From Arthrobacter agilis (lineage in GTDB: Bacteria; Actinomycetota; Actinomycetes; Actinomycetales; Micrococcaceae), in NCBI RefSeq assembly GCF_006494655.1, contig NZ_VHIM01000005.1:1-64000 (forward strand): a stretch of 64,000 nucleotides of DNA, written 5' to 3'. Positions 9,395 to 30,779 of the stretch are shown here, piece after piece. Each line of letters begins with the position of its first letter. Position 1 is the stretch's first letter. A model generated the notes under the pieces. It was not told the DNA's origin and made no database searches. It was given only the letters and a program-made list of their open reading frames with translations. The position numbers and the translations under genes are program-made.

Positions 9395-9431
9395 AGGAGG
9401 GCCCCGGGACGCCACGTCCCGGGGCCCTCCT
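9395..9431. terminator. Very strong terminator hairpin
   Basis: A 17-base perfect stem (AGGAGGGCCCCGGGACG and its complement) with a CCA loop lies directly downstream of the leftward coiled-coil gene and upstream of the nuclease gene. Confidence 0.8.
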
Positions 9432-9450
9432 CACTCCATGCGGTCGATCG

Positions 9451-15117: not shown

Positions 15118-15161
15118 TGTGATTCTCCTTGGATTGATGACGTGCGAAGGGTGGTGTGGGG

Positions 15162-16007
15162 TCAGCTCTTGACGGAGCCCGCGGTCAGGCCGCTGATGAA
15201 GAAGCGCTGCAGGACCAGGAAGAGGATCAGCACGGGGATGGAGCCGAGAATGCTCATCGCCATGATCTGGTTCCACTCGTACGAGTGCTGGCCCATGAGC
15301 AACTGGATGCCGATCGGAACGGTGCGCATCTCCGTGGTGCGGGTGAGCGTGAGGGCGAAGAGGTACTCGTTCCAGGCGATCATGAAGGTGTAGATGCCCA
15401 CCGAGACGATGCCCGGCACGGAGATGGGGACGAGGACGCGCCACAGGGCGGTGAGGGAACCGGCGCCGTCGACCCGCACGGCCTCGTCGAGCTCACGGGG
15501 CAGGGTGTTCATGTAGCCGGTCATCATGATGATGGCGTAGGGCAGCGTGAAGACCATGTAGGTGAAGATGAGGCCCGGGTAGGTGTTGTAGAGGCCGAGG
15601 GCCACCACCAGACCGAAGTACGGGATCAGCAGGGTGATGGGCGGGACGGCTTGCACGCTGATGATGACGACGTTCAGGACCCGCTTGCCGCGGAACTCGA
15701 ACCGGCTGAACGCGTAGGCGGCGTGGATGGCCACCAGGAGCGTCAGGATGGTGACGGCTCCGGCCACCAGGTAGCTGTTGAAGAAGAACCGGAGGGTCTC
15801 GGAGTTCGTGAGGATCGCGGTGTACGCATCGAACGAGAACGAACCCGTGATGAGCCTGGGCGGCAGCTCGAAGATCTCCGTGTTGGACTTGAAGGAGCTG
15901 GACAGCATCCAGAGCACGGGGCCCGCGGCGAACACCGCCCCGAGGAGCAGGCCTGCCAGGACACCGGATTTCGCCAGGCGTGTGCGGCGTTGCGTGGTCA
16001 TCGTCAT
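15162..16007 (-). CDS. Carbohydrate ABC transporter permease (MalG type)
   Basis: A 281-residue permease with six membrane segments. Its EAA loop reads ELDEAVRVDGAGSLTALWRVLVP and it ends ISGLTAGSVKS, a common MalG-type terminus. It follows its MalF-type partner by one base and precedes the aldolase. An in-frame ATG at 16001 is an alternative start two codons downstream. No ATPase is encoded in the operon. Confidence 0.93.
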   Translation of the reverse strand: MTMTTQRRTRLAKSGVLAGLLLGAVFAAGPVLWMLSSSFKSNTEIFELPPRLITGSFSFDAYTAILTNSETLRFFFNSYLVAGAVTILTLLVAIHAAYAFSRFEFRGKRVLNVVIISVQAVPPITLLIPYFGLVVALGLYNTYPGLIFTYMVFTLPYAIIMMTGYMNTLPRELDEAVRVDGAGSLTALWRVLVPISVPGIVSVGIYTFMIAWNEYLFALTLTRTTEMRTVPIGIQLLMGQHSYEWNQIMAMSILGSIPVLILFLVLQRFFISGLTAGSVKS

Positions 16008-16008
16008 G

Positions 16009-16935
16009 TCAATCCCTCGCTTTCTGGTGACGCACGTAGAGGACGGCCAGGACCAGCGACATCAGCAGGATCAGCACCGCGGCGGTGGCCGCGAGCGAGA
16101 AGTCGTAGTTCGCGAAGGCCAGCTTGTAGGTGTAGGTGCTGAGCATCTCGGTGACGTCGATGGGCCCTCCACCCGTGGTCAGCCAGATCAGCGCGAACTG
16201 CTGGGACGTCCAGATCAGGTCGAGCAGCAGGAGGCTGATGATGATGGGTCGCAGCTGGGGGATGGTCACGTTCCAGAAGCGCTGCACCTGGCTGGCGCCG
16301 TCGATGCTCGCCGCCTCGTGGAGGTCCTGCGGAATACCCTGCAGGCCTGCCAGGAGGCTGACCATGAAGAAGGGGTAACCCGCCCAGATGTTGATGAAGG
16401 TCACCGTGCCGAGCGCGAGCTGCGGATCGGCGAGCCACTCCACGTCCGTGTTCAGCAGGAAGTTCACGATGCCGTTGGGGGAGAGGACCATGCGCCACAG
16501 GACGGCGATGACGGCGGCGGTGAACAGCCAGGGCAGGGCGTACAGGGCCCGGAAGACAGCCCGGGAGGTGACGCTGATCAGCGGGCTGTTCAGCAGCAGG
16601 GCGAAGGTGAGGCCGAGCACCAGGTGGACCGCGACGCTGACGGTGGAGAAGAAGACGGTGTTGCCGGTGGCCTTCCAGAACGCCGGGTCCGTCAGCACGG
16701 TGACGTAGTTGGCGGTCCCGGTGAACTCTGAGGACGACCTCAGGATCACGTTGTCCTGGAAGGAGTAGCCGATGACCATCACGATCGGCACGATCATGAG
16801 GACGAACAGCAGGATCAGGGTGGGGGCGAGGAAACCGTAGGACTCACCGGCACGGCGTAGACGACGGCGCTTCCTGGGTAGTGCCCCGGTGACGAGGGTC
16901 TCGGGGTCGGGAGGGGTCAGGGTGCGGAGGCTCAT
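16009..16935 (-). CDS. Carbohydrate ABC transporter permease (MalF type)
   Basis: A 308-residue permease with a basic cytoplasmic tail (RKRRRLRRAGE) and six hydrophobic segments. The EAA loop reads LHEAASIDGASQVQRFWNVTIP. It lies behind the binding-protein gene, separated from it by a hairpin that may lower expression relative to the binding protein. The ribosome site before the ATG is weak (AAGG about 12 bases away). Confidence 0.93.
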   Translation of the reverse strand: MSLRTLTPPDPETLVTGALPRKRRRLRRAGESYGFLAPTLILLFVLMIVPIVMVIGYSFQDNVILRSSSEFTGTANYVTVLTDPAFWKATGNTVFFSTVSVAVHLVLGLTFALLLNSPLISVTSRAVFRALYALPWLFTAAVIAVLWRMVLSPNGIVNFLLNTDVEWLADPQLALGTVTFINIWAGYPFFMVSLLAGLQGIPQDLHEAASIDGASQVQRFWNVTIPQLRPIIISLLLLDLIWTSQQFALIWLTTGGGPIDVTEMLSTYTYKLAFANYDFSLAATAAVLILLMSLVLAVLYVRHQKARD

Positions 16936-16957
16936 GGGGTGACGACCTTGCTAGGGG

Positions 16958-16988
16958 GTCGGGTGCCGCGTGGGGCGCGGCACCCGAC
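16958..16988 (-). terminator. Intercistronic hairpin after the binding-protein gene
   Basis: A 12-base perfect stem, GTCGGGTGCCGC against GCGGCACCCGAC, lies between the binding-protein stop and the first permease. There is no U-tract. Such elements usually stabilise the upstream message or stop part of transcription, giving an excess of binding protein. Confidence 0.65.
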
Positions 16989-17007
16989 CCGATTTGGAAA
17001 GGAGGAC

Positions 17008-18309
17008 CTAGAACTCGCCCTCCCACTCCGTCTGCGCCTTCTCGAGCGCCTCGGAGAGGGACTGCTGACCGTCGAAGGCGGATTGCAGCTGGGCCCCGAG
17101 CTGCCGCATCAATTCCTCCGCCACGGGCAGGCCGACGAACTCGTTGGCCGGGTAGCCCGCCTGGTAGATGTCGAAGGCGTCCTTGAAGAGGTCGTCGTCC
17201 TCGACGAAGGCGGGAACGGATTCGGTGTTCCCGGGGAAGGCGTTCGCCATGGTCGAGAGCTCCGAGTTCGTCTCCTCGCTCATCAGGAAGGAGACCAGCT
17301 TGGCGGCGGCGTCCTTGTTCTCGGAGTTCTCCGAGATGCCGATCCCCCAGGAGGCGTAGGGGATGCCGCGCTCGCCGGTGTAGTCGTCGGCAGCGGGGAC
17401 GGCGGAGATGGAGAAAGCCAGATCCGGGTTGCTCTCCCGGATGAGATTGATGTGGGCGAGGGAGTCGATCATCATGCCGACCCGCCCGTTGGTGAACTCC
17501 TCGACCTTGTCCTGCTCCTTCATGGTGAAGCTGCCGGGAGCAATCACGTCGTCGTCCCACATGCCGCCGATGAACTCGACGGCCGACGTGACGTCATCGT
17601 TCGTGAGATCCGGCTGACCGTCGTCGAGCATGGTGCCACCGGAGGCCCACGCCCACGACATCACATCGTTCTGGACGCCGTTCGGCGCTTCGAGGGACAG
17701 GGGGAGCACCCACCCGGCGGCGTCGCCGTCGAGGTCCGAGATGCTCTTGGCAGCGTCGGCGAATTCGGAGCGCGTCTCGGGGGGAGCGTCCACGCCGGCC
17801 TCGGCCAGCAGCTCGTCGTTGGTGAACATGGGGTAGACGAAGTTCACGACCGGGACCATGTAGGTGCTGTCGTCGACCTTCACCTGGCTCACCAGCTGGC
17901 TGTCGTCGAACCCGGCCTCCTCGAGGAGGGGAGTGAGGTCGGCGATGACGCCCTGCTCCGCGAAGTCGCTGACCCAGGCGCCGTCCAGGCCGACGACGTC
18001 GGGCATGGTCCCGGAGGCCGCGCCGGCGAACAGCTGCTCCTTCGTGGAGGCGTAGGGGCCGCTGACGAGGTCCACGGTGATGCCCGGGTTCTCCTCCTCG
18101 AAGGTGTCGATCAGGGCACGGAACTCGCCGTCGGGGAGCTCGGGCTCCCACCACTGGGCGAACTCGATGGTGACGTCGCCATCGGCGGCGTCGGACCCGG
18201 AGCCGGAGCTGCCCGACCCGCACGCCGTGAGTGCGAGAATCGAGACGGCGGTGGTGGCAATGCCGGTGAACAGGGTTGCGCGGTGACGCATGCGCCGATG
18301 GGTGGACAT
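17008..18309 (-). CDS. Sugar ABC transporter substrate-binding lipoprotein
   Basis: A 433-residue family 1 solute-binding protein. The start at 18309 (GGAG five bases upstream) begins a signal peptide with lipobox LTAC (Cys30), followed by a Gly/Ser linker. The mature protein contains IEFAQWWEPELPDGEF and a KEQLFAGAASGTMPDVVGLDG segment typical of CUT1 binding proteins. It is the first gene of the operon that continues through two permeases, aldolase, ADP-type kinase and ManA, and it diverges from the DeoR regulator. Confidence 0.93.
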   Translation of the reverse strand: MSTHRRMRHRATLFTGIATTAVSILALTACGSGSSGSGSDAADGDVTIEFAQWWEPELPDGEFRALIDTFEEENPGITVDLVSGPYASTKEQLFAGAASGTMPDVVGLDGAWVSDFAEQGVIADLTPLLEEAGFDDSQLVSQVKVDDSTYMVPVVNFVYPMFTNDELLAEAGVDAPPETRSEFADAAKSISDLDGDAAGWVLPLSLEAPNGVQNDVMSWAWASGGTMLDDGQPDLTNDDVTSAVEFIGGMWDDDVIAPGSFTMKEQDKVEEFTNGRVGMMIDSLAHINLIRESNPDLAFSISAVPAADDYTGERGIPYASWGIGISENSENKDAAAKLVSFLMSEETNSELSTMANAFPGNTESVPAFVEDDDLFKDAFDIYQAGYPANEFVGLPVAEELMRQLGAQLQSAFDGQQSLSEALEKAQTEWEGEF

Positions 18310-18358
18310 CAGGTCTCCTCGTTGAGATGTGCGATCTTTCGCTGGATTATGCTTTTTC

Positions 18359-18494
18359 TTGCTGCTTTCTCCACGATTGTGCGCGCGATCACAAGGGTCC
18401 GTCAAGAGCTCGACGAGAAAAAGACGCGCCAAACAGCAACCGACGTCAATTTGTGCTCGTCGAAAGCGCAATTAATTGCTGTTTCATGCTGTTT
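18359..18494. promoter_or_regulatory. DeoR-type operator repeats in the divergent promoter
   Basis: Copies of a TTGCTGTTT-like motif recur between the importer operon and the DeoR gene: TTGCTGCTTT at 18359, its complement AAACAGCAA at 18431, TTGCTGTTT at 18476 and ATGCTGTTT at 18486. The last two are ten bases apart, one helical turn, in the same orientation. Repeated short motifs of this kind are typical of DeoR-family operators. Confidence 0.6.
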
Positions 18495-18533
18495 CTTCGG
18501 CCGCATGAACCGTCGTGTGTTACAGATGAGGGC

Positions 18534-19349
18534 ATGACATCGCAGGAATTGCAGCGCGTCCGCCAGTTACCGGCCGGGCGGAAGGCGGACCTCGCCGCCT
18601 ATGTTGACGAGGTGGGCCGGGTGACGGTGGCCGATCTTGCCGCCCACTTCGCAGTCTCCATCGACACGATCCGGCGCGACCTCGACCAACTGGACCGTGA
18701 GAACGTCCTGATCCGGACGCACGGTGGTGCCGTCAGCACCTCGGAGCGGGCAGGCCGGGACCGGGAGATCGATGTGCGGCTCAGCATGCAGACGGCGGAG
18801 AAGGAGGCGATCGCCCACGCGGCCGTCGATCTCGTGGCCGACGGATCGGTGCTGATGATCAACGCGGGGACCACGAGTCTGGCCGTCGCCAGGGCGCTCC
18901 GTAACCACCGCAACCTGACGATCGCCACGAACAACCTCCGGATCCCGGCGGAAATCTCGCCGTCCGTGTTCCGTGACCTCTATATGTTCGGTGGGGCCGT
19001 GCGGACGCTGACCCAGGCGACGACGGGCCCGGTGACCCTCGGCATGAGCGGAAGCACGCCGGAAATGGACATCCGCTGCGACATGGCGCTGATCGCCGTC
19101 GGTGCTGTGGACGCGTCAGGATTCTCGACCTCGAACCTCGGGGACGCCGCAATGATGGCCGAGATGATCAGCCGGGCCGAGCGCACCGCCATCCTCGCCG
19201 ACTCGACCAAGCTCGATCGCAGGCTCTTCGCGCAGATCGTCCCGCTCGAGGGTGCCGACTACCTGATCACGGACCGGGCGCCGTCATCGGGACTCGCTGC
19301 AGCCCTCGATGCAGCCGGCGTGACGGTGATCCTCCCCGACGGGGAGTGA
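18534..19349 (+). CDS. DeoR-family transcriptional regulator
   Basis: A 271-residue repressor. The N-terminal helix-turn-helix (VTVADLAAHFAVSIDTIRRDL, then LIRTHGGAV) is the classic DeoR signature. The C-terminal sugar-phosphate-sensing domain shows INAGTTS and ILADSTKL. The ATG at 18534 has GAGGG three bases upstream. Being divergent from the importer/aldolase/ADP-kinase operon, it most likely represses that operon and is relieved by a phosphorylated intermediate of the same pathway. Confidence 0.93.
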   Translation: MTSQELQRVRQLPAGRKADLAAYVDEVGRVTVADLAAHFAVSIDTIRRDLDQLDRENVLIRTHGGAVSTSERAGRDREIDVRLSMQTAEKEAIAHAAVDLVADGSVLMINAGTTSLAVARALRNHRNLTIATNNLRIPAEISPSVFRDLYMFGGAVRTLTQATTGPVTLGMSGSTPEMDIRCDMALIAVGAVDASGFSTSNLGDAAMMAEMISRAERTAILADSTKLDRRLFAQIVPLEGADYLITDRAPSSGLAAALDAAGVTVILPDGE

Positions 19350-19436: not shown

Positions 19437-19901
19437 TCAGTGCTTCTCGTACCCGCTGATCGCGTCCACCTTCGCTGCCGACGCGCTGGAGGTATCGAAG
19501 GTGTAGCCGAGCCACTCCTTCGCGAGGCGGCGGGCGAGCTCCACGCCGATCACGCGCTGACCCATGCAGAGCACCTGCGCGTTGTTGCTCAGCACGGAGC
19601 GCTCCACGGAGTAGGAATCATGGGCGGTCACGGCGCGGACGCCGGCCACCTTGTTGGCCGAGATGGCCACGCCGAGGCCGGTGCCGCAGATCAGCAGGGC
19701 ACGGTCCGCCTCCCCGCTCTCCACCTTCCGGGCTGCGTCCACGGCGATGTGCGGGTAGTCGGTGTTCTCCGAGCGGGAGATGCCGACGTCCACCACGCTC
19801 TCCACGCGCTCGTCCGCCTCGAGGTCCTTGAGCAGGACCTCCTTGTAGTCCAGCCCGGCTTCATCGCTACCGATCACGATGCGCATTTTCTTCTCGCTCA
19901 T
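19437..19901 (-). CDS. RpiB/LacAB-family isomerase, probable erythrulose-4-phosphate isomerase
   Basis: A 154-residue sugar-phosphate isomerase of the RpiB family. It has [11 protein letters not shown] at the start, the active-site Cys72 in [14 protein letters not shown], and [18 protein letters not shown]. RpiB relatives act on ribose 5-, allose 6- or tetrulose phosphates. Here the gene ends an operon of a TPI-like isomerase and a DhaK-type kinase. That trio is known from erythritol/threitol catabolism (EryI/DerI, EryH/LerI and the erythrulose kinases), so conversion of D-erythrulose 4-phosphate to D-erythrose 4-phosphate is the best guess. A GAGGA ribosome site precedes the ATG. Confidence 0.85.
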
Positions 19902-19942
19902 GTCCTCTTCCTCTTCCTTCTGTGGATGGCAGGTGGTGCTGA

Positions 19943-20692
19943 TCAGGAGCCGGTGGCTCGGCGGAGCAGCTGAAGATAGCCGTCCAGCTCCCAGGCGGTG
20001 CGTCCGACGAACAGTCCGTCGACGTGGTCGATACCCAGCAGGTCGGTTGCGTTGTCGAGGCTGACCGACCCGCCGTACAGCAGGCCCGCCACGCCTCCGC
20101 CGTACTCCTGCCCGAGCGCGGCGAACGGTTCCGCCAGCTCCTCGACGGTGGCGGGCCGCCCGTGCTCGCCGATCGCCCAGATGGGTTCGTAGGCGATCAG
20201 GACCCGGGCCCGCTGGTCGTCGTCGAGCCCCTCGAGCGCGCGGGATGCCTGCTCGAGGATGTAGGGGGTGGAGCGGCCGCGGTCCTTCACATCGCCCGGT
20301 TCGCCGATGCAGAGCAGGGGAGTGAGTCCGTGGCGCAGGGTGGCGGCCACCTTGAGGCGCACCGTCCGGTCCGTCTCGCCGAAGTGCTCTCGCCGCTCGG
20401 AGTGGCCGATCTCGACCAGGCGTGCGCCGGCGTCGGCGACCTGCGGGACGGAGAGCTCGCCGGTCCAGGCTCCCGCATCCTCCCAGTGGGCGTTCTGGGC
20501 GCCGACCAGCACCCTGCTGTCGTCGGCGAGGATCCCGGCGACGGCGGCGATCGCCGTCGCGGGCGGAATGACGAAGGGCTGGACGTCGCCGAGCTCCTGT
20601 CCCGAGAGGCCCGCGACCAGTCCCCGCGCATAGTCGCGGGCCTCATCGAGGGTCTTGTTCATCTTCCAGCTGGTGCCGACCCAGATGGTCAC
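19943..20692 (-). CDS. Triosephosphate-isomerase-like protein, probable erythrulose-1-phosphate isomerase
   Basis: A 249-residue TIM-barrel protein with all TPI catalytic residues: Lys10 (TSWKMNK), His97 (EIGHSERR) and Glu169 (AYEPIWAIG), plus LLYGGSVS for the phosphate. The N-terminal GTSWKMNKT in place of the housekeeping GNWKMN is typical of the LerI/EryH branch that epimerises L-erythrulose 1-phosphate to D-erythrulose 4-phosphate. GTG start overlaps the upstream kinase stop (GTGA), implying coupling. Acting on DHAP as an ordinary TPI remains possible. Confidence 0.87.
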
Positions 20693-22431
20693 GGCTGCTG
20701 CTTCGCGCCGGCCGCACCGAAGTGGTCCGCCAGGGCCGCCATCAGCAGGGAGAAGGAGATGGCACCCGGATCGGGTGTGCCGACACTCTTCTCACCCAGC
20801 ACCCTCGAACGGCCGAGGCGCGCGGTGATGTCCGCGGTCGCGTCGGCGGCCTCGCGGGCCACGGCGGCCGCCCTGCCGGTCGACTCCGCTGCATCGGAGG
20901 ACGCCTGGAACTCGGTCTCGAGTGCCTCGCGGAAGGGAACGATGGCGTCGACCATGGTCTTGTCGCCGGGCTCGGCGCCACCGAGGCGACGTATCGCGTC
21001 GGTGCCGGTGAGCAGCGCCCGGACGACGTCGTCGGGCGTGGTGCCGCGGGCGTCGTCGAATACGCTGCCCGCGGCGGTGAGGGCAGCGCCCCACAGGGCG
21101 CCGGACGTACCGCCGGCCTCCTCCGCCCACGCGTCACCGGCATGGAGCAGGACGGTCCGGGCACCGGCGCCCTTGTCGAGAGCCGCCCGGGCGGCCTCCG
21201 CCGCTCCGCGCGTCCCGAAGGCCATGCCCTGCCCGTGGTCGCCGTCGCCGGCGACGGCGTCGAGCTTCCCGAAGTACTCCTGGTGCTCGGACGCCGTGGC
21301 CCGCAGGACCTCGAGGGCCTCCACGATGGACTGCGCGACCTCCCGGGACTCGGGGGAGGACTCCGGAATGGCTTCCTCGCCGGGGGTGTGGACGGACGTT
21401 CGTTGCGTGCGCTCGGTCGAGTCCGGAGCTCCGCGGCGGAACGCGGGAGTGTCGGCCGGCGCGAGCCAGAACTGTTCGAGCTCGTCGTCGAGGAAGACGA
21501 CCGTGAGCGACAGGCCGGCCATGTCGAGGCTGGTGACGTGCTCGCCCACCTCGGGTGCCACCACGGTGAGTCCCTTCTCGGCGAACCGCTCGGCCAGGCG
21601 GCCGTAGGCGAGGAAGAGTTCCTCGTACTTGACGCTGCCGAGGCCGTTCAGGACGACGCCCACGCGCCCCTGGTAGCCGCCGTCGGAACGCTCCGGTTCC
21701 TCCTCCAGCACGCCGTCGAGGAGCAGGTCCGCGACCTCGCTGCCCGTCCCGAGCGGAACCTCGCGGATGCCCGGTTCCCCGTGGATCCCCAGCCCAATGG
21801 CCATCTCGCCGTCGGGCACGTGGAAGAGCGCCCCGTCCGCGCCGGGAAGCGTGCACCCCTCGAACGCGACGCCGAAGGACCGCGTGGCGTCGTTCGCCTT
21901 CCAGGCCACGCGCTCGGCCTCGTCGATGTCGGCTCCGGCCTCGATGGCCGCGCCCGCGATCTTGAACACCACGAGGTCACCGGCGACACCGCGCCGGTCA
22001 CGGTGGTCCTCGGCAGGACCGGAGGCGATGTCGTCGGACACCCGGATGATCCTGACGTCCACGCCCTCCGCCCGGAGCTTCTCCGCGGCCTGCCCGAAGT
22101 GCAGCACGTCACCGGCGTAGTTGCCGAAGCCCAGGATCACACCGCCCCCGTTCTCGGCCGAACGCGATACCGAGTACACCTGCGAGGCCGACGGCGAGGA
22201 GAAGATGTTGCCGCACGGCGCCCCGTGGCCCATACCCGGGCCGATCCACCCCGCGAAGGCCGGGTAGTGCCCCGAACCGCCACCGATCACCAGGGCCGGC
22301 TGGCCCTGCGGGGTCTCGGTGGAGCGCACCACCCCGCCGTGCGCCAGCACCACGTGCTCGGGATGCGCCGCGGCGTAGCCCCGCAGGGCGTCGGTGGCGA
22401 ACTGCTCGGGATCATTCACAAGGTAGGTCAT
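20689..22431 (-). CDS. DhaK-DhaL fusion kinase, probable erythrulose (or dihydroxyacetone) kinase
   Basis: A 580-residue ATP-type kinase. The N-terminal DhaK domain has GGGSGHYPAF (His55), NYAGD (Asp108) and GIHGEPG (His217, the residue that binds the keto sugar covalently). The C-terminal DhaL domain begins near residue 360, has the Mg-ATP site in GDGDHGQGM and continues to EEAGGTSGALWG. The HYPAF segment, in place of HEPAH of true dihydroxyacetone kinases, resembles erythrulose kinases. It lies between the dehydrogenase and the TPI-like gene, so the keto sugar made upstream is phosphorylated here. Confidence 0.9.
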   Translation of the reverse strand: MTYLVNDPEQFATDALRGYAAAHPEHVVLAHGGVVRSTETPQGQPALVIGGGSGHYPAFAGWIGPGMGHGAPCGNIFSSPSASQVYSVSRSAENGGGVILGFGNYAGDVLHFGQAAEKLRAEGVDVRIIRVSDDIASGPAEDHRDRRGVAGDLVVFKIAGAAIEAGADIDEAERVAWKANDATRSFGVAFEGCTLPGADGALFHVPDGEMAIGLGIHGEPGIREVPLGTGSEVADLLLDGVLEEEPERSDGGYQGRVGVVLNGLGSVKYEELFLAYGRLAERFAEKGLTVVAPEVGEHVTSLDMAGLSLTVVFLDDELEQFWLAPADTPAFRRGAPDSTERTQRTSVHTPGEEAIPESSPESREVAQSIVEALEVLRATASEHQEYFGKLDAVAGDGDHGQGMAFGTRGAAEAARAALDKGAGARTVLLHAGDAWAEEAGGTSGALWGAALTAAGSVFDDARGTTPDDVVRALLTGTDAIRRLGGAEPGDKTMVDAIVPFREALETEFQASSDAAESTGRAAAVAREAADATADITARLGRSRVLGEKSVGTPDPGAISFSLLMAALADHFGAAGAKQQP

Positions 22432-22482
22432 GGGTCCGGCTCTCCAGGCGTGGTCTGATCGGGGGCGTCGGGCGGGGCGGCC

Positions 22483-23475
22483 TCAGCTGGTGGTCGAGCC
22501 CAGGCCGTCCTCCGCTGTGGACTCCTCCACGGGGCTGGGACCGAGATCCTTGAGCAGTCCGGCCATCGCGACGTAGGCCTTGTTGCGGTACGCCACGAGC
22601 TCGTCCGTCCGCTCGGCCGGGATGTCGAGGAACCCTTCGCCCGACTTGGTGCCCAGCTTCCCGGCGTCCACGAGGTCCTGGAGGATCTGCGGCGTGGCGA
22701 AGCGCTCGGGAAAGGAGGTCTGCAGGGACGCGTAGCAGAAGGCGTAGACGTCCAGCCCGGCCATGTCGGCGATGGCGAAGGGGCCGAAGAACGGCAGGCG
22801 GAAGCCGAACGTGGTCCGCACGAGGGTGTCCACGTCCTCCGCCGAGGCGATGCCCTCCTCGACGACCTGCGCCGCCTCGTGGAACAGCGCGTACTGGAGG
22901 CGGTTGAGGACGAACCCGGTCACGTCCTTGACGACGGCGGCCTTCTTGCCCGTCAGCTCCACGATCCCGCGCGCCACCTCGATGGTCTCCGATGTCGTTC
23001 CGGCGTGCGGGATGACCTCGACGCCGGGGATGAAGGGCGCGGGGTTGGAGAAGTGCACGCCGAGGAACCGCCCCGGGTTCTCGACCGCCTCGGCCAGTGT
23101 CGCGATGAGGATGGTGGAGGTGTTGGAGCCGATCACCGCGTCGGCGGGCGCTGCGTCACTGATGCGGCGCAGGGTGCTGTGCTTGATGTCGATGACCTCC
23201 GGCACGGCCTCCTCGATGTAGGAGGCATCAGCGACGGCGTCCTCGATGCTCGGGGCTGCCCGCAGGTTGTCACGGAGCCGCTGCACGGCGTCCTCGGGAA
23301 ACAACCCGTCGGCAACGAAGCGCTCCGCCTCGCCGAGCAGGCGTTCGAGGTTCTTCTCGGCGATCTCCTGCGACACGTCGGCGAGGGCCACCTGCGCGCC
23401 GCCGAGGGCCAGCACCTGCGCGATGCCTCCACCCATGTATCCCGAACCGACAACTGCCACTGAACGTTGGGCCAT
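22483..23475 (-). CDS. 3-hydroxyacyl-CoA-dehydrogenase-like hydroxyacid dehydrogenase
   Basis: A 330-residue NAD-dependent dehydrogenase. A Rossmann domain (GSGYMGGG at residues 10-17), SNTST, the catalytic His141 in GVHFSNPAP and a C-terminal helical domain (KDVTGFVLNRLQ) are present. Relatives oxidise the 3-hydroxyl of acyl-CoAs, but the fold also includes L-gulonate 3-dehydrogenase, which acts on a free aldonate. With a GntP aldonate permease and a keto-sugar kinase as neighbours, oxidation of an aldonate at C3 is more likely than fatty-acid metabolism. Start 23475 has AGGAG at suitable distance; the ATG at 23484 abuts the ribosome site. Confidence 0.88.
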   Translation of the reverse strand: MAQRSVAVVGSGYMGGGIAQVLALGGAQVALADVSQEIAEKNLERLLGEAERFVADGLFPEDAVQRLRDNLRAAPSIEDAVADASYIEEAVPEVIDIKHSTLRRISDAAPADAVIGSNTSTILIATLAEAVENPGRFLGVHFSNPAPFIPGVEVIPHAGTTSETIEVARGIVELTGKKAAVVKDVTGFVLNRLQYALFHEAAQVVEEGIASAEDVDTLVRTTFGFRLPFFGPFAIADMAGLDVYAFCYASLQTSFPERFATPQILQDLVDAGKLGTKSGEGFLDIPAERTDELVAYRNKAYVAMAGLLKDLGPSPVEESTAEDGLGSTTS

Positions 23476-23558
23476 GAGCCGCATCTCCTCTGATGTGCTG
23501 TGGGGGTCTGGTGACCTCGTGCCCGTGCCTCAAAGGGCGGGCAAAACGTGAACCGTAT

Positions 23559-23568
23559 TCCTATAGGA
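23559..23568. promoter_or_regulatory. Operator palindrome 1 (TCCTATAGGA)
   Basis: A perfect ten-base palindrome 84 bases upstream of the dehydrogenase start. It resembles GntR/FadR-type operators and overlaps a TATAGG/TATTCC promoter-like hexamer. A second copy lies 91 bases away. Confidence 0.65.
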
Positions 23569-23648
23569 TCTACGCCACGCGCAGGGGGTGTCAACCGAAA
23601 GTCCGCCGCTCCCGACGACGGGACGATTTTCCTGTCGCGGTCGCCAAT

Positions 23649-23660
23649 ATCCTATAGGGT
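23649..23660. promoter_or_regulatory. Operator palindrome 2 (ATCCTATAGGGT)
   Basis: A near-perfect twelve-base palindrome with the same CCTATAGG core, 77 bases before the GntP permease start, overlapping a TATCCT -10-like hexamer. The pair flanks the divergent promoters, so one regulator probably controls both directions. No GntR gene is adjacent. Confidence 0.65.
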
Positions 23661-23737
23661 GGTGCCCATTCCCCTCCGGAGAAGGGCTTCCGCACCCGCT
23701 GCGCTGGCCCACCGATGCGATCAAAGGTGCTCACATT

Positions 23738-25162
23738 ATGCAGATCCATGTGCCGGCGGCCACGGCCGACGCCCTCGTGCTCGCGGAGCGGCCCACCTGG
23801 GCGCTCCTGCTGATCGCCGTCCTGGCGATCGCCGCCCTCCTGCTGCTCATCATCAAGCTGCGCGTCCACGCGTTCTTCGCCCTGATCATCATCAGCGTCC
23901 TCACGGCGCTCGCCGCAGGTATCGGGGTGGGTGACGTGATCGGCGTGGTGATCGCAGGTTTCAGTACCACCGTGGGCAACGTGGCCCTGCTCGTCGGATT
24001 CGGCGCGGTGCTCGGCCGGCTCGTCGAGATCTCCGGTGGCGCGCAGGTGCTCGCGGACGCCATGCTCCGCCGGTTCGGCGAGAAACGCGCACCGCTCGCG
24101 CTGGCCGTCGCCTCGCTCTTCTACGCCTTCCCGATCTTCCTCGATGCGGGCTTCATCGTGATGCTGCCCATCATCTACACGGTCGCCCGCCGTCTCGGCG
24201 GATCCTTCATGCTGTACGTCCTGCCGTCCATCGGCGCCTTCCTGATGATGCACGCGCTGACGCCGCCCCACCCGGGCCCGACGGCGGCCGCCACCGTGAT
24301 GGGCGCCGATGTCGGCATGGTGGTGCTGATCGCCCTCCTGGTGGGGCTGCCCACCTGGTACCTCGCCGGGTATCGGCTGAGCCTGATCATCGCCAAGCGC
24401 TACCCGAACATGCCCGTGCCGAACCTGCTGGGCCAGGCGAACCTCGACGAGGACACGCCCCGACCGGGTTTCTGGACCATCATCTTCGTTCTGCTGCTGC
24501 CCCTGGTCCTCATCTTCTTCAACACCCTGTTCACCACCCTCGAGGCGGACGGAGCGGTCGACGCGGAGAACGGGCTCTTCCAGATCTCCCGGCTGATCGG
24601 CAACACGCCGGTTGCCCTGCTCATCGCGACGCTGTTCGCGATGTTCCTGCTCTACATCCGGCCCCGTCGGGGGAGCGGCAAGGTGGGAGGCGCCCTCGAG
24701 GACCTGGTGGACAACTCCCTGGCTCCCGTGTGCTCGATCATCCTCATCACCGGTGCCGGTGGCGCCTTCGGTCGTGTCCTCACGGAGACCGGCATCGGCT
24801 CCACGATCGCAGGAGGCCTCAACGCCATGGGGCTGCCCGTGATCCTCGCCGGCTTCCTCGTCGCCGTCGCCTTCCGGGTGGCGCAGGGTTCGGCGACGGT
24901 CGCTGCCACCACTGCCGGGTCCATCATGGCGCCGGCCGTGGTGGAGCTTGGTCTCTCGGGCATCGCGCTGGCGGCCATCGTGGTCGCGATCTCCGCGGGC
25001 TCCATCACGTTCTCGCACGTCAACGATTCCGGTTTCTGGCTGATCGGGAAGTTCTGCGGCTTCGACACGCTGACCACCCTGAAGACCTGGAGCGTCATCG
25101 CCACGGCGATCGGGTTCATGGCCTTCGCCCTGGCCTGGATCGTCTACGCACTCGCAGCCTGA
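23738..25162 (+). CDS. GntP-family gluconate/aldonate:H+ symporter
   Basis: A 474-residue permease with about 12-14 membrane segments. GntP signatures are visible: FGAVLGRLVEISGGAQVLA, FYAFPIFLDAGFIVMLPI, HALTPPHPGPTAAA and ITFSHVNDSGFWLIGKF. Family members import gluconate, idonate, fructuronate, glycerate and similar hydroxy acids. The ATG at 23738 has AAAGGTG nine bases upstream; an earlier in-frame ATG would add a hydrophilic stretch overlapping the promoter. It diverges from the dehydrogenase/kinase operon, whose substrate it probably brings in. Confidence 0.92.
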   Translation: MQIHVPAATADALVLAERPTWALLLIAVLAIAALLLLIIKLRVHAFFALIIISVLTALAAGIGVGDVIGVVIAGFSTTVGNVALLVGFGAVLGRLVEISGGAQVLADAMLRRFGEKRAPLALAVASLFYAFPIFLDAGFIVMLPIIYTVARRLGGSFMLYVLPSIGAFLMMHALTPPHPGPTAAATVMGADVGMVVLIALLVGLPTWYLAGYRLSLIIAKRYPNMPVPNLLGQANLDEDTPRPGFWTIIFVLLLPLVLIFFNTLFTTLEADGAVDAENGLFQISRLIGNTPVALLIATLFAMFLLYIRPRRGSGKVGGALEDLVDNSLAPVCSIILITGAGGAFGRVLTETGIGSTIAGGLNAMGLPVILAGFLVAVAFRVAQGSATVAATTAGSIMAPAVVELGLSGIALAAIVVAISAGSITFSHVNDSGFWLIGKFCGFDTLTTLKTWSVIATAIGFMAFALAWIVYALAA

Positions 25163-25247
25163 GACGCCGGTCGCCCGACGCCCGCCGCGTCCTCCACCGC
25201 CCGCACCCCACTACGGCCCTCCCGCCACCGACCCCGAGGAGAACACC

Positions 25248-26189
25248 ATGACCCCCACACCCGAGACCTGGCCGATCGGCGCCGCCCTGCTCAATTTCAC
25301 CGGCGTCACCGCCGACGGACGGGACCGCACGACGGCGGGCGCCGAGGCCTGGAAGCAGACCCTCCGCGAAGTGCGCTCCGCGGGGTTCGACCACGTGGAC
25401 CTCACCGACTCCTGGGTGCGCCCGGCGGACCTCGACAGCGACGGCCGCAAGGACCTGCTGGCGGTGGCCCGCTCCTACGATCTCGCCTTCAGCGACATCG
25501 CCGTCACCCGCAAGAGCGTGATCACCCCGGACGAGGACCAGGCGCAGCGCAACATCGCCTACACGAAGCGGACCATCGACGCAGCCGCCGATCTCGAAGC
25601 ACCGATGGTCTGCCTCGGGCTCCACGATCCGTTCACGGACGCGCAGAAGGAGGCCACCTGGTTCTGGCTGGCAGAGGGCGCGGAGGACGCCGATACCCAG
25701 GAGAACCGGGACAAGGCAGCCACCCGGTTCCGCGACCTCGGCGAGTACGCCGCAGCGCGGGGCGTCAGCATCTCCCTGGAGATGTACGAGGGCACGTTCC
25801 TCGGCACGGCGGACAGCTCCGTGCAGCTGGTCACCGCCGTGGACCTGCCCAACGTGGGGCTCTGCCCCGACATCGGCAACATCGTGCGGCTGCATCGAGA
25901 GGTGGAGGACTGGCGGGAGATGCTGACCAAGATGCTGCCGCACACCAACTACTGGCAGCTCAAGAACTACTTCCGGGACTACGACCCCGCGACGGGCTCC
26001 TATGCCTCGGCGCCGGCCCCGCTGGCCCTCGGCTTCATCAATTACCGCGAGGCCATCGGCATGGCGGTGGAGAGCGGCTTCGACGGACCCATGTGCGTGG
26101 AGCACTACGGCGGAGACGGCCTGAGTGTCACCGCCATGAACCGCGACTACATCCGCGAGATCCTGAAGGCGAAGCTCCCGGAGGCCTGA
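25248..26189 (+). CDS. Sugar phosphate isomerase/epimerase (xylose-isomerase-like TIM barrel)
   Basis: A 313-residue AP-endonuclease-2/xylose-isomerase-like barrel. Metal-site residues are visible in SLEMYEG (Glu), GLCPDIGN (Asp), HTNYWQLKNYF (His) and MCVEHYGGD (Glu/His). A strong GAGGAG precedes the ATG, 85 bases behind the GntP permease, so the two are probably co-transcribed. Relatives include hydroxypyruvate isomerase and 2-oxo-tetronate isomerase, consistent with work on a keto-acid intermediate, but the reaction is not fixed by sequence. Confidence 0.85.
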   Translation: MTPTPETWPIGAALLNFTGVTADGRDRTTAGAEAWKQTLREVRSAGFDHVDLTDSWVRPADLDSDGRKDLLAVARSYDLAFSDIAVTRKSVITPDEDQAQRNIAYTKRTIDAAADLEAPMVCLGLHDPFTDAQKEATWFWLAEGAEDADTQENRDKAATRFRDLGEYAAARGVSISLEMYEGTFLGTADSSVQLVTAVDLPNVGLCPDIGNIVRLHREVEDWREMLTKMLPHTNYWQLKNYFRDYDPATGSYASAPAPLALGFINYREAIGMAVESGFDGPMCVEHYGGDGLSVTAMNRDYIREILKAKLPEA

Positions 26190-26224: not shown

Positions 26225-26313
26225 CGTCAGGAAGCAGCGTCGTCGCGTCGCGTCGCGTTGCGTCGCGTCGCGGCGTCAGGAAGCGGCGTCGTCACGGCGC
26301 CGCGTCAGGAAGC
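26225..26313. repeat. GTCGC pentamer tract with three copies of CGTCAGGAAGC
   Basis: CGTCAGGAAGC occurs at 26225, 26274 and 26303. Between the first two lies a tandem run of CGTCG/GTCGC units (about 26238-26272). The third copy overlaps the end of the LacI gene and encodes its last residues and stop, so the others look like duplicated gene ends. Confidence 0.8.
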
Positions 26314-27345
26314 AGCGCCCGACGGCGGGGCGGTCGAGGAACGGACGATGAGGTGGGTGGCGAGCTCGACCCGCATGGAATCTGGTTTCTCGCCGCCGAT
26401 CTCGCGCAGGAGTGCGCGGACCGCCGTCCGGCCCATGTCGCGGAGCGGCTGTGCCACGGTGGTGAGCTGGGGGGACGTCTGCTCGCTCGGGTAGGTGCCG
26501 TCGAAGCCCACTACGCTCAAGTCACGCGGCACTGCCACGCCGCGTGCGTGGGCCTCGGCGAGCACCCCCACCGCGATGCTGTCGGAGGAGGCGAAGATGG
26601 CCTGGGGCGGCTCGGCCAGGCCCAGGAGCCGATCCAGGCCCCGCCGCCCCGTCTCGGAGTCGAACGTGCCGGCCAGGACGTAGTCCTCCGACACCCCGAG
26701 GCCCCGCTCGAGGAGCGCAGCGACGTAGCCGTGCTCGCGGTCCTGGCTGCACTCCGCGCTGGCGGGCCCACCGATGAAGGCGATGCGCGTGTGTCCCAGT
26801 CCGAGGAGATGTTCGGTGGCCGCCTTCCCGCCGGACCAGTTGGTGGCGCCCACGCTCGCCACCCCCGGGCCGGGCGGATTGATGGGATCGATCACGACGA
26901 CGGCGATGCCGCGCTGCTTCACCTCCCTGATCTCCCGGGGTGTCCAGCGGGAGGTGACGAGCAGCAGCCCGCGGCGCCCCTGCGCCTGCATCTTCTCTGC
27001 GCGCTCGACCGCCGGGAGATGCGTGTGTCCGGTCTTCGACAGGACGATCTCCGCACCGCTGCCCTCGGCGCTCTCGAGGATGCCGTCCATGACCTCGGCG
27101 TAGTACGCCGTGGTCACGCTGTCCACGGCGACGTCGATCAGGGTGGAGGGCGACGGCGCCAGGGCATGGCGCTGGCCGGGCGGCCGGTAGTCGGACTGCC
27201 GAAGTGCGTCCAGGACACGCTTCCGGGTGGCCGGCGCAACATCCTCCCGCGCGTTGATCACCTTCGAGACCGTGGGGATGGACACTCCGGCCAGGGCTGC
27301 GACCGACGCGAGGGTGGCCCGCGCCCGTATCTCCGTCTCCGACAA
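26305..27345 (-). CDS. LacI-family transcriptional repressor
   Basis: A 346-residue regulator. The N-terminal helix-turn-helix reads TLASVAALAGVSIPTVSKVIN, with the hinge near KRVLDALRQSDYRP, followed by a periplasmic-binding-protein-like sensor (DSVTTAYYAEVMDGI, GLLLVTSRWT, RIAFIGGP, DLSVVGFDGT). TTG start with AAGGA ten bases upstream. It diverges from the importer operon at 27625 and a LacI-type palindrome lies between them, so control of that operon is likely. The tail PPSGAAS lies in a duplicated sequence. Confidence 0.92.
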   Translation of the reverse strand: MSETEIRARATLASVAALAGVSIPTVSKVINAREDVAPATRKRVLDALRQSDYRPPGQRHALAPSPSTLIDVAVDSVTTAYYAEVMDGILESAEGSGAEIVLSKTGHTHLPAVERAEKMQAQGRRGLLLVTSRWTPREIREVKQRGIAVVVIDPINPPGPGVASVGATNWSGGKAATEHLLGLGHTRIAFIGGPASAECSQDREHGYVAALLERGLGVSEDYVLAGTFDSETGRRGLDRLLGLAEPPQAIFASSDSIAVGVLAEAHARGVAVPRDLSVVGFDGTYPSEQTSPQLTTVAQPLRDMGRTAVRALLREIGGEKPDSMRVELATHLIVRSSTAPPSGAAS

Positions 27346-27504
27346 TGTTTCGACATCCTTCCGCAGTCCTGATGGCCCAGCAATACGTTCTTCCGCGCCG
27401 GGTTGGCCTGACCTGCTGCAGCATGTTCGTTATCCGACCGGTACTGCGCAGCATTGACCTCCCGGTGTGATGCAGGTTACTTTACTCTTGTTAGTTTGTT
27501 GTTA

Positions 27505-27519
27505 TCGAAAACTTTTCGA
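27505..27519. promoter_or_regulatory. LacI-type operator
   Basis: TCGAAAA-C-TTTTCGA is a perfect inverted repeat with seven-base arms around a central C, about 105 bases before the binding-protein start, directly behind an AT-rich promoter-like stretch (27477-27504). Confidence 0.7.
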
Positions 27520-27624
27520 ACACCTTCCGCAGCGTGGCGGTCAGCGACCGCGTAGCCGCGGAGTTGACCTGCCCACCTCAGCCAGCCGTCCTGCTCCGGC
27601 TGAGTCGACGTAACGGAAGAACTG

Positions 27625-28944
27625 ATGACCATGCGAACCAGAACCAGCCTCATCTCCGCAGCCTCCGCCATCACCCTGGCGCTCAGCCTATCCGCCTGCG
27701 GTTCCAGTGGACCGTCGGATCCCACGGCCAACACGGAATCCCCCTCGATGTGGGCCCTGACGGGCAGCAGCGAGGACATCTTCCGCTCGTCCGTCGAGCG
27801 CTGGAACGAGGAGAACCCGGACGACTCGATCAACCAGGAATTCTTCGCGAACGACGCCTACAAGACCAAGGTCCGCACCGCCGTCGGCGCCGGCGAGGGG
27901 CCCACGTTCATCTACGGCTGGGGCGGCGGGGTCCTGAAGTCCTACGTGGACGCCGGCCACGTCAGCGAGCTGGACCAGTTCCTCGCGGACAACCCCGACG
28001 TGAAGGACCGCTACATCCCCTCCGTCCTCGAGAACGGCGTGATCGACGGGAAGACCTACGCCCTGCCGAACAACAACATGCAGCCCGTGGTGCTCTACTA
28101 CAACAAGGAGCTCTTCGAGCAGATCGGCGCCGAGCCCCCCGAGACCTGGGAGGAGCTCATGGCCCTGGTGCCGCAGTTCAACGACGCCGGGATAGCGCCC
28201 TTCGCGCTCGCCGGGCAGTCCAAGTGGCCCAACCTGATGTGGCTCTCCTACCTCGTGGACAGGATCGGCGGTCCCGAGGTCTTCCAGTCCATCCTCGACG
28301 GCGAGGAGGACGCCTGGTCCGATCCCGCGGTCATCGAGGCACTCACCAAGATCCAGGAACTGGTGGACGCCGACGGGTTCGTGAACGGCTTCTCCTCGAT
28401 CGCGGCCGACGCCGGAGCCGACAGCGCGCTGCTCTACACGGACCGTGCGGCGATGATGCTCCACGGCGGCTGGGTCTACCAGAACCTCAAGAACGACGCC
28501 CCGGAGTTCGTCGAGTCGGACGCCGTCGGGTTCGTCCCCTTCCCCGCCGTGGAGGGTGGCGAGGGCGATCCCGAGAACGTCGTCGGGAACCCGGCGAACA
28601 TGTGGTCGCTGTCCACCGATGCCACCGACGAGCAGAGGGACGCGGCGCTGAACTACCTGAAGGACGGACTCTTCAGCGAGGAGTACACGCAGGCCATGAT
28701 CGATTCCGGCGCCGTCCCCGCCGTCAACGGCATCGAGGACCAGCTCGCGGCCTCCGAGGACAAGGACTTCGTGGAGTTCGTCTACGGCCTGGCCCAGGAC
28801 GCGCCCAGCTTCCAGCTCTCCTGGGACCAGGCGCTGAGCCCCGCCCAGGGCGACGCGATGCTGGCCAACCTCGACCAGATCTTCATCGGCCAGATCACGC
28901 CCGAGCAGTTCGCCGAGAACATGAACGCAACCCTCGGCGAATGA
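27625..28944 (+). CDS. Sugar ABC transporter substrate-binding lipoprotein
   Basis: A 439-residue family 1 binding protein with signal peptide and lipobox LSAC (Cys25). The mature part holds PTFIYGWGGGVLKSYVDAG and ALPNNNMQPVVLYYNKELFEQIG, typical of CUT1 binding proteins. GGAAG precedes the ATG. It is the first gene of a seven-gene run of overlapping or closely spaced genes (27625-34825): two permeases, two dehydrogenases, an isomerase and a ThuA-like protein, controlled in all likelihood by the divergent LacI. Confidence 0.93.
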   Translation: MTMRTRTSLISAASAITLALSLSACGSSGPSDPTANTESPSMWALTGSSEDIFRSSVERWNEENPDDSINQEFFANDAYKTKVRTAVGAGEGPTFIYGWGGGVLKSYVDAGHVSELDQFLADNPDVKDRYIPSVLENGVIDGKTYALPNNNMQPVVLYYNKELFEQIGAEPPETWEELMALVPQFNDAGIAPFALAGQSKWPNLMWLSYLVDRIGGPEVFQSILDGEEDAWSDPAVIEALTKIQELVDADGFVNGFSSIAADAGADSALLYTDRAAMMLHGGWVYQNLKNDAPEFVESDAVGFVPFPAVEGGEGDPENVVGNPANMWSLSTDATDEQRDAALNYLKDGLFSEEYTQAMIDSGAVPAVNGIEDQLAASEDKDFVEFVYGLAQDAPSFQLSWDQALSPAQGDAMLANLDQIFIGQITPEQFAENMNATLGE

Positions 28945-29858
28945 GTACCGTCCTGAAGCCCAAACCCATGATGAAGGCTCGGGGGGCGCGCACCGAAGGC
29001 CCCTCGGCCTGGATGGTGGTGCCGGCCCTCGTCTTCTTCGTGACCTTCGCCGTCGTGCCCCTCCTCGGGGTGGTCTTCCTCAGCTTCACCAACTGGAACG
29101 GCCTCGGCGCCATCACCTGGGCCGGGCTCGAGAGCTGGCAGACCGCGCTCACGGACAGCGTGACGATGAACGCGCTCGTCGTCACGCTGAAGATCATGGT
29201 GTTCTCGCTCCTGGTCCAGGTACCGATCAGCCTCCTGCTGGGAGTCTTCACAGCAGGAGGCCAGCGGTACCGGGCGGTGCTGGCGGTGCTGTACTTCGTG
29301 CCGCTGCTGCTCTCCTCCGCCGCCGTGGCGATCGCCTTCAAGGCGCTGCTGGATCCCAACTTCGGGATGGGTCCGGGCCTCGGCATCCCGGCGCTGGCGC
29401 AGAACTGGCTGGGCAATCCCGATCTGGTGCTCTTCGTGGTCATCTTCGTGATCGCCTGGCAGTTCGTGCCCTTCCACACGCTCATCTACCAGGGTGGCGT
29501 GCGGCAGATCCCGGCCTCGTTCTACGAGGCGGCGCAGATCGACGGCGCCGGCCGGATGCAGCAGTTCTTCCACATCACGCTGCCCCAGCTCAAATACACC
29601 ATCATCACGTCCTCCACCCTGATGGTGCTGGGCTCGCTGGCCTACTTCGACCTGATCTTCATCCTCACGGCAGGCGGCCCCGGCTACGCGACCAGGCTCC
29701 TCCCGCTGCACATGTACCTCACGGGCTTCCGGGCCAATGACATGGGCGCGGCAAGTGCCCTCGGGGTGATCCTCGTGGTGATCGGGCTGGGCCTGGCCCT
29801 CATCCTGCAGCGGCTCGGCGGCAGGAACCGCAGCGCAAGCCAGTTGGAAGGAGCATAG
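28941..29858 (+). CDS. Carbohydrate ABC transporter permease (MalF type)
   Basis: A 305-residue permease with six membrane segments and the EAA loop FYEAAQIDGAGRMQQFFHITLP. Its ATG overlaps the binding-protein stop (ATGA), so the genes are coupled. It ends with a short basic tail (RLGGRNRSASQ). The ATPase is missing from the operon. Confidence 0.93.
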   Translation: MSTVLKPKPMMKARGARTEGPSAWMVVPALVFFVTFAVVPLLGVVFLSFTNWNGLGAITWAGLESWQTALTDSVTMNALVVTLKIMVFSLLVQVPISLLLGVFTAGGQRYRAVLAVLYFVPLLLSSAAVAIAFKALLDPNFGMGPGLGIPALAQNWLGNPDLVLFVVIFVIAWQFVPFHTLIYQGGVRQIPASFYEAAQIDGAGRMQQFFHITLPQLKYTIITSSTLMVLGSLAYFDLIFILTAGGPGYATRLLPLHMYLTGFRANDMGAASALGVILVVIGLGLALILQRLGGRNRSASQLEGA

Positions 29859-29860
29859 CC

Positions 29861-30757: not shown

Positions 30758-30779
30758 AACGAAAGGAAGGTCCCGCTTC

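Follow-up and report, generated by a model that had tools for sequence, protein, structure and literature searches.

A Candidate Regulon for Shortening a Five-Carbon Sugar Acid to D-Erythrose 4-Phosphate in Arthrobacter agilis

Gene Content and Arrangement of the Locus

A six-gene locus was analyzed in a 64,000-nucleotide stretch of Arthrobacter agilis DNA (contig NZ_VHIM01000005.1, positions 1 to 64,000, hereafter the window), which may serve the breakdown of a sugar acid. A Pfam search of the window proteins recovered all six genes at the positions listed in Table 1, and the gene content and divergent arrangement given in a preliminary description of this DNA were confirmed by domains and coordinates. 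The genes of an RpiB-like isomerase, a TPI-like isomerase, a DhaK-DhaL fusion kinase (DAK) and a 3-hydroxyacid dehydrogenase of the HCDH fold lie in this order on the minus strand, while those of a GntP-family permease and a xylose-isomerase-like TIM barrel (PF01261, hereafter TIMB) diverge from them on the plus strand. The TPI-like and DAK genes overlap by 4 bases, and an alternative start of HCDH at 23475 is possible. Among the window proteins, no NCBIfam model naming HCDH or TIMB scored above its cut-off.

Table 1. Features of the locus in the window, with the related gene pair on another contig.
Feature	Position	Strand	Evidence or context
RpiB-like isomerase, DerI-type candidate	19437-19901	-	Pfam LacAB_rpiB 157 bits
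TPI-like isomerase, LerI-type candidate	19943-20692	-	Pfam TIM 212 bits
DhaK-DhaL fusion kinase (DAK), proposed L-erythrulose 1-kinase, LerK type	20689-22431	-	Pfam Dak1 354 and Dak2 147 bits
3-hydroxyacid dehydrogenase (HCDH fold), proposed aldonate 3-dehydrogenase	22483-23484	-	Pfam 3HCDH_N 165 and 3HCDH 84 bits
Putative operator 1, TTCCTATAGGAT	23558-23569	not assigned	upstream of HCDH
Putative operator 2, ATCCTATAGGGT	23649-23660	not assigned	upstream of GntP
GntP-family sugar-acid permease	23738-25162	+	Pfam GntP_permease 376 bits; NCBIfam TIGR00791 gntP 349 bits, cut-off 293
TIMB (PF01261, xylose-isomerase-like TIM barrel), proposed metal-dependent 3-oxo-acid decarboxylase	25248-26189	+	Pfam AP_endonuc_2 105 bits
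GntR-SDR pair	L219 (G000:C41:264000-283900), 9137-10701		third operator site between them

Recurrence of the Gene Set in Other Genomes

A search for TIMB in 147 related genomes gave a match at E ≤ 0.001 in 54 of them, and 42 places, the window's own included, matched at an E-value of about 3e-64 or better. The regions of 40 of these 42 places were analyzed, those left out being the window's own and that of genome G118. Together with six plasmid loci and the best 80 of at least 572 loci from further genomes, 126 TIMB loci were obtained, of which 121 are distinct by TIMB sequence after identical TIMB genes were removed; more than half of the best 80 are Arthrobacter relatives by title, so that the locus counts are not independent of each other. 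Gene presence was counted within the TIMB locus and not across the rest of each genome. The open reading frame (ORF) calls covered 617 of the 641 labelled hits, with labels given by similarity only and with starts that may be over-extended, as in L169.

The gene set of the window was found to recur. HCDH is the dehydrogenase of 78 of the 121 distinct loci, a PdxA-like gene is found in 22 and a HIBADH-type gene alone in 6, while 15 loci carry none of the three, and HCDH and PdxA never occur together (0/121). DAK accompanies 71 of the 78 HCDH loci, RpiB 68 and TPI 65, with corresponding values of 19, 14 and 15 in the 22 PdxA loci, 5, 5 and 1 in the six HIBADH loci, and 9, 7 and 5 in the 15 loci without dehydrogenase. 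A short-chain-type gene labelled SDR is far commoner with HCDH (57/78) than with PdxA (2/22), and is present in 2/6 HIBADH loci and 2/15 loci without dehydrogenase. Many Arthrobacter relatives carry GntR, TIMB, DAK, RpiB, HCDH, SDR, MFS and TPI, and the rhizobial set consists of GntR, PdxA, TctCBA, TIMB and DAK. The importers near TIMB are GntP, TctABC or MFS, with ABC importers in some loci. In three Streptomyces loci and one Goodfellowiella locus a HIBADH-type gene replaces HCDH, and another member of that HIBADH cluster scores 280 bits with the L-threonate dehydrogenase model (cut-off 350). The HCDH, PdxA and HIBADH families all act on 3-hydroxy acids, so a constant barrel and kinase with exchanged dehydrogenase families is what would be expected if the step were the oxidation of a 3-hydroxyl group.

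Some individual loci deviate from the common pattern. A second HCDH-like gene (40% identity) lies directly upstream of TIMB in L132 (9060-9881), besides the usual HCDH. L088 (Actinotalea sp. K2) combines the TIMB set with an ABC importer and with a GH127 gene (beta-L-arabinofuranosidase family, 7004-8950) that overlaps the beginning of HCDH, and in L093 genes of GH39, AKR and SDR proteins stand beside ABC genes. These two contexts hint at sugar-derived acids and do not settle the substrate.

Conservation of the Intergenic Palindrome

In the window, the palindrome CCTATAGG occurs only in the gap between HCDH and GntP, as TTCCTATAGGAT and ATCCTATAGGGT, with no other site in the 64 kb. Across the 126 loci, 143 sites were detected in 84 loci, against 21.7 expected from mononucleotide shuffles, and all 143 are intergenic by the ORF calls, the intergenic share of the locus sequence being about 18%. 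Among the 121 distinct loci, 137 of 137 sites are intergenic, which is the highest share of all eight-base palindromes with at least 20 sites (the next reaches 0.69), and the locus count of the palindrome is the highest among eight-base palindromes with four G/C. The genes that start within 500 bases of a site are mostly TIMB (75) and GntR (44), followed by GntP (9), DAK (8), HCDH (7), MFS2 (6), PdxA (3), TctC (2) and others (7), with none for six sites. The palindrome is present in 58/78 HCDH, 12/22 PdxA and 3/6 HIBADH loci; the three dehydrogenase families occupy one slot, partly under one operator. Some Arthrobacter loci place an importer with a 2-keto-acid-reductase-like gene under the same operator. 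An operator function of the palindrome is shown by this conservation, as a prediction from sequence.

In the whole 3.24-Mb genome, the longer pattern WTCCTATAGGR occurs only three times, the two window sites included, and a reversed-pattern control gave 0. At the third place, on contig C41, the pattern is flanked by a GntR gene on one side and an SDR gene on the other, neither of which occurs in the window set. The C41 GntR is up to 88% and the C41 SDR up to 95% identical to those in complete congener operons, and the flanks of the pair on both sides match the flanks of the complete operons in L061 and L063. These matches suggest that the pair is what is left of a second copy of the operon, from which every gene except GntR and SDR has disappeared. 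A GntR gene stands between HCDH and GntP in congeners L079-L083 and L085, a place where the window has none. The SDR probably belongs to the pathway, and the window operon is probably under the remote control of the C41 GntR. The loci of congeners L079 and L080 likewise showed no SDR, the rest of their genomes not having been searched. The HCDH-GntP gap of L085 (3957-7700) is about 2.6 kb longer than in congeners. The record of L080 (WNZI01000005.1) bears the title Vibrio cholerae 35D but agrees, in length and in the place of its match, with contig 5 of G026, which belongs to the genus of the window, so that this assembly looks mislabelled.

Residue Signatures of the Kinase and the Isomerases

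Carter et al. reportedly described in 2018 a route from D-apionate, a plant sugar acid, through 3-oxo-isoapionate to L-erythrulose, with ApnO, OiaC, LerK, LerI and DerI as enzymes. For comparison with the window, operons with a PF16896 gene (PGDH_C, KARI-like N domain), a TIM barrel, DAK, RpiB and an MFS-type importer were found in Pantoea sp. At-9b, Erwinia sp. E602 and two Actinobacteria, and all of them except L172 also have TPI. Their PF16896 and barrel genes are presumably ApnO and OiaC, and PF16896 is assumed here to be ApnO also from its co-location with OiaX. In sister operons, PF16896 is accompanied by a DUF1537-type kinase and by a protein with the annotation 3-oxo-isoapionate-4-phosphate decarboxylase OiaX, of which the L170 copy reaches 549 bits (cut-off 700). 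Excerpts of two papers place a D-apionate oxidoisomerase, a 3-oxoisoapionate kinase and a decarboxylase in one cluster (PMC11747546) and tie RuBisCO-like proteins to 3-oxo-isoapionate-4-phosphate (PMC6302742).

In the alignment, the window TPI-like protein has Ser in place of Asn11 (N11S), with K13, H95 and E165 intact. Residues were counted only in TPI and RpiB hits with more than 80% coverage and in HCDH hits with more than 75%. N11S was observed in 12/12 TPIs from the TIMB loci of 12 relatives, and G075 has an additional N11S copy outside its TIMB locus, whereas the housekeeping TPIs of these 12 relatives and of the genome under study, which has a separate one, retain Asn11 in 13/13 cases. 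Among 54 further neighbour copies (loci L079 and above only), position 11 is Ser in 49, Gly in 2 and a gap in 3. The erythritol locus L176 and the loci L169, L173, L174 and L175 likewise encode a TPI with Ser11, and Lys13, His95 and Glu165 are kept.

The window RpiB shares only 29% identity with the housekeeping RpiB of its own genome; the identity rises to 41-44% with the copies of L173-L176 and reaches 64 and 67% with those of L169 and L172, the two actinobacterial ApnO-type operons. It carries the motif CGTG, as do DerI/EryI-type copies and 97/97 neighbours, where the housekeeping copy has GGSG. The L175 RpiB scores 258.8 bits with the NCBIfam model of D-erythrulose-4-phosphate isomerase, above the cut-off of 240. 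With the kinases of the apionate-type operons in Pantoea and Erwinia, the window DAK shares 50 and 51% identity, and it keeps the GIHGEPG motif. According to an excerpt of PMC10733421, LerI acts on L-erythrulose 1-phosphate and DerI on D-erythrulose 4-phosphate. Judged by their residues, both window isomerases look like tetrulose-phosphate enzymes rather than the housekeeping TPI and RpiB. N11S in the TPI and the Cys motif in the RpiB point to a route ending in erythrulose phosphates and consequently favour a C5 acid over a C4 acid, as had been proposed for this locus.

Relatives of the Dehydrogenase and of the TIM Barrel

Among solved structures, the nearest relative of the window HCDH is 4om8 (169 bits), an enzyme that dehydrogenates a free pyridine carboxylate, while CoA enzymes reach at most 160 bits and two lambda-crystallin structures 120 and 111 bits. 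Of 83 HCDH homologues, 82-83 retain the motifs of the catalytic Ser, His, Glu and Asn. The window enzyme has HFSNP and 4om8 has HWSNP, where CoA-annotated relatives and the two paralogues of the same genome have HFFNP. At the position of residue 61, 3mog, 9fbd and 6aa8 have GK, whose Lys has a role in CoA binding; the window enzyme and 80/83 homologues have GL instead, and 4j0e is gapped at this place.

The AlphaFold model of TIMB is a confident TIM barrel (pLDDT 94.9), and its closest solved structure is 5tnv from M. smegmatis, with Mg bound and no function in its title (TM 0.93, 44% identity). In hhalign, TIMB aligned with the single OiaC-type sequence of L169 at a probability of 96.1%, with four OiaC-type barrels at 96.6% (E 6.7e-10, 213 columns), and with the barrel of the erythritol locus at 0.6%. 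The LExYE motif is present in 41/41 TIMB proteins and in the four OiaC-type barrels, which also have flanking motifs in common with TIMB, and it is not found in two other annotated barrel or isomerase proteins. By these profile and motif matches, TIMB is a predicted remote relative of the OiaC-type barrel that adjoins the oxidoisomerase-type gene.

Flanking Genes

Two ABC sugar systems flank the locus at about 15-18.3 kb and about 27.6-30.8 kb, each with its own regulator, DeoR and LacI, respectively. The region 14254-19349 contains a class II aldolase, an ABC sugar importer and the divergent DeoR regulator; the best model for the aldolase, PRK08185, is below its cut-off, and the ketose-bisphosphate aldolase model is passed. 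The region 26305-31961 contains LacI, an ABC importer and a Gfo/Idh protein akin to levoglucosan dehydrogenase (361 bits, cut-off 650). The same LacI/ABC/Gfo-Idh locus is found in congeners L066 and L067, where it adjoins a different version of the sugar-acid operon.

Discussion

We propose, at a probability of roughly 0.6, that the locus and the C41 pair form a catabolic regulon which takes a C5 sugar acid through a 3-oxo acid and L-erythrulose to D-erythrose 4-phosphate. GntP would import the five-carbon sugar acid, and the HCDH-type enzyme and the SDR from the other contig, by the chemistry of their families, would oxidize it to the 3-oxo acid. TIMB, as a metal-dependent enzyme, may then decarboxylate the 3-oxo acid to L-erythrulose, a role that we infer from its remote homology to the D-apionate barrel and from its same place in the scheme. 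The DhaK-DhaL kinase would convert L-erythrulose to L-erythrulose 1-phosphate, the N11S TPI-like enzyme would isomerize this to D-erythrulose 4-phosphate, and the RpiB-like enzyme would yield D-erythrose 4-phosphate. GntR, acting at TCCTATAGGA, is predicted from the conserved operator to control both divergent transcripts and the SDR.

Several findings weigh against this proposal. The window TPI-like protein scores 359 bits with the NCBIfam TPI model NF000722, above its cut-off of 293, and the window RpiB falls below the DerI model (151 bits, cut-off 240) and passes the ribose-5-phosphate isomerase model TIGR02133 (198 bits, cut-off 168), as the housekeeping RpiB also does. Since the key residues are altered, the scores above the cut-offs of NF000722 and TIGR02133 are likely an over-annotation of tetrulose-phosphate enzymes. 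For HCDH, the preliminary description had suggested a sugar-acid rather than an acyl-CoA dehydrogenase; this is favoured by the free-acid enzyme 4om8 as nearest solved relative, while the change from GK to GL is a weak mark of it, because the two other HCDH paralogues of the genome lack GK too. In the rhizobial loci, TIMB and DAK are not accompanied by TPI or RpiB. The palindrome was not found in 42 of the 126 loci, including four alphaproteobacterial and most Cellulomonas-like loci with ABC importers, and the substrate of these loci may differ. TIMB shows no BLAST similarity to OiaC-type barrels at 1e-4 or 1e-3, and its residue 237, aligned to a presumed metal-ligand His, is His in 26/41 and Gln in 15/41 proteins, including the window. 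Its next 49 structural matches after 5tnv are mostly isomerases and 3-epimerases (11-18% identity), and its only NCBIfam hits are L-ribulose-5-phosphate 3-epimerases (39 bits). In addition, PdxA-type enzymes usually decarboxylate by themselves, so a separate decarboxylase would be redundant in the 22 PdxA loci.

These fold neighbours and 3-epimerase hits make it possible that TIMB is an epimerase, including an erythrulose 3-epimerase, or a 2-oxo/3-oxo isomerase of the UlaE or OtnI kind, with decarboxylation left to the dehydrogenase or occurring spontaneously. The decarboxylating habit of PdxA-type dehydrogenases would suit such a role, and so would the HIBADH-type genes that stand for HCDH in the Streptomyces and Goodfellowiella loci. 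However, TIMB shares LExYE and flanking motifs with the OiaC-type barrel and resembles the barrel of the erythritol locus far less, which argues against this reading, and we therefore regard an epimerase or isomerase as a minority view that deserves to be kept in mind. A C4-acid route, in which a tetronate is oxidized at C3 and decarboxylated to dihydroxyacetone for a dihydroxyacetone kinase and TPI, seems unlikely. The family names of DAK and TPI suit it, the restriction of the rhizobial loci to PdxA, TIMB and DAK is consistent with it, and some congener loci adjoin DUF1537 and L-threonate-dehydrogenase-like genes. Nevertheless, neither the N11S change of the window and its relatives nor the retained DerI-kind RpiB is needed for dihydroxyacetone phosphate. 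In the known tetronate pathways with DUF1537 kinases (L-threonate, D-erythronate), phosphorylation precedes decarboxylation and the product is dihydroxyacetone phosphate; they share with our proposal a sugar acid, a 3-oxo acid and a decarboxylation, and no protein of the window block has a DUF1537 domain by Pfam.

The known D-apionate pathway itself, with import of D-apionate, oxidoisomerization, decarboxylation to L-erythrulose and then LerK, LerI and DerI, has the same logic and downstream set, and both the high identity of the window RpiB to those of L169 and L172 and the remote homology of the two barrels would fit it. We consider it improbable as the function of the window, since PF16896 has no match in the genome under study (it was found in 6/296 genomes of the phylum) and HCDH belongs to another family, without PGDH_C and KARI-like domains. 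Two genomes carry both kinds of locus, namely G124 (TIMB/HCDH locus L056 and ApnO-type locus L172 at separate places) and Paracoccus sp. TOH (PdxA/TIMB/DAK locus L035 and ApnO/OiaX locus L177), which suggests different substrates. The palindrome was likewise not found in the ApnO-type and related loci L169, L170 and L172-L177, and its single site in L171 leaves seven of eight ApnO-type loci without it. Finally, the LerK/LerI/DerI-type enzymes and the HCDH fold could be explained by an erythritol or threitol pathway that has lost its polyol dehydrogenase, or by a fatty-acid-type HCDH adjoining by chance. Such an origin is very hard to credit, as HCDH is the most frequent dehydrogenase of the TIMB loci and shares the operator, and its closest solved relative is not a CoA enzyme. 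No polyol dehydrogenase, polyol kinase or polyol importer occurs among the six genes, the whole genome not having been searched for one; the earlier statement that polyol dehydrogenase and importer are missing thus holds by Pfam for the six-gene block, the flanking ABC systems having regulators of their own.

The proposed route from a C5 sugar acid to D-erythrose 4-phosphate can be set beside three known systems. In common with the OiaC branch of D-apionate breakdown it would have a C5 sugar acid, a dehydrogenase making a 3-oxo acid, a TIM barrel, DAK, an N11S TPI-like and an RpiB-like enzyme and an importer of small acids, the window roles being assigned by resemblance; the LerK, LerI and DerI-type enzymes are matched in the window by the DAK identity, N11S and CGTG. 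The window differs from this branch in lacking PF16896, in having HCDH instead (elsewhere PdxA or HIBADH), in a barrel that is only remotely related, and in GntP import, an operator of its own and an extra SDR. Erythritol and threitol catabolism (LerK/LerI/DerI of M. smegmatis; EryH/EryI) ends in the same way, with the conversion of L-erythrulose or its phosphate to D-erythrose 4-phosphate, whereas the entry in the window would be from an acid. In mammals, L-gulonate 3-dehydrogenase (CRYL1) acts before the decarboxylation of 3-keto-L-gulonate, so that an HCDH-fold enzyme oxidizes C3 of an aldonate and loss of CO2 gives a ketose, as is proposed for the window; that system, however, leads from C6 to C5 and then into another route, and the lambda-crystallin structures are weaker relatives of the window HCDH than 4om8.

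With regard to the substrate, the order of kinase, LerI and DerI-type enzymes implies L-erythrulose and, if the acid is linear and its C4 untouched, an L-pentonate. The likeliest linear substrates are perhaps L-xylonate, L-lyxonate, L-arabinonate and L-ribonate. The importers with 2-keto-acid-reductase-like genes and the neighbouring L-threonate-type genes give weak clues. FadB- and FabG-type enzymes are a stereo-complementary pair for 3-hydroxyacyl groups. A more specific reading, which we offer as speculation and hold to be doubtful in its entirety, is that the pathway serves L-threo-pentonates (L-xylonate, L-lyxonate) from plant ascorbate, with HCDH and SDR as stereo-complementary aldonate 3-dehydrogenases and TIMB as a new family of 3-oxo-pentonate decarboxylases. 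The same operator would add, in some Arthrobacter, an importer and a 2-keto-acid-reductase-like gene feeding in 2-keto-L-xylonate, and PdxA or HIBADH would take the dehydrogenase step elsewhere. An excerpt of PMC6225978 gives 2-keto-L-xylonate as an oxidation product of ascorbate-derived diketogulonate.

In the openly licensed literature, subscription papers being outside the scope, no description of the gene set or of an L-threo-pentonate pathway was found. The earlier view that no described pathway has the full set agrees with this for the set as such, while the D-apionate route, as reportedly described, is near-identical in logic. The logic of the pathway is thus known, and the entry enzyme, the barrel family and the regulator differ from those of the known pathway, as the substrate probably does.

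If the proposal is true, a further route would lead from sugar acids to erythrose 4-phosphate by shortening of the carbon chain, and a function would be assigned to the TIMB family, which has members in at least 121 distinct actinobacterial and alphaproteobacterial loci and whose one solved structure is 5tnv. The TPI and ribose-5-phosphate isomerase models would also be shown to over-annotate tetrulose-phosphate enzymes. With the N11S mark and the operator at hand, both claims can readily be tested.

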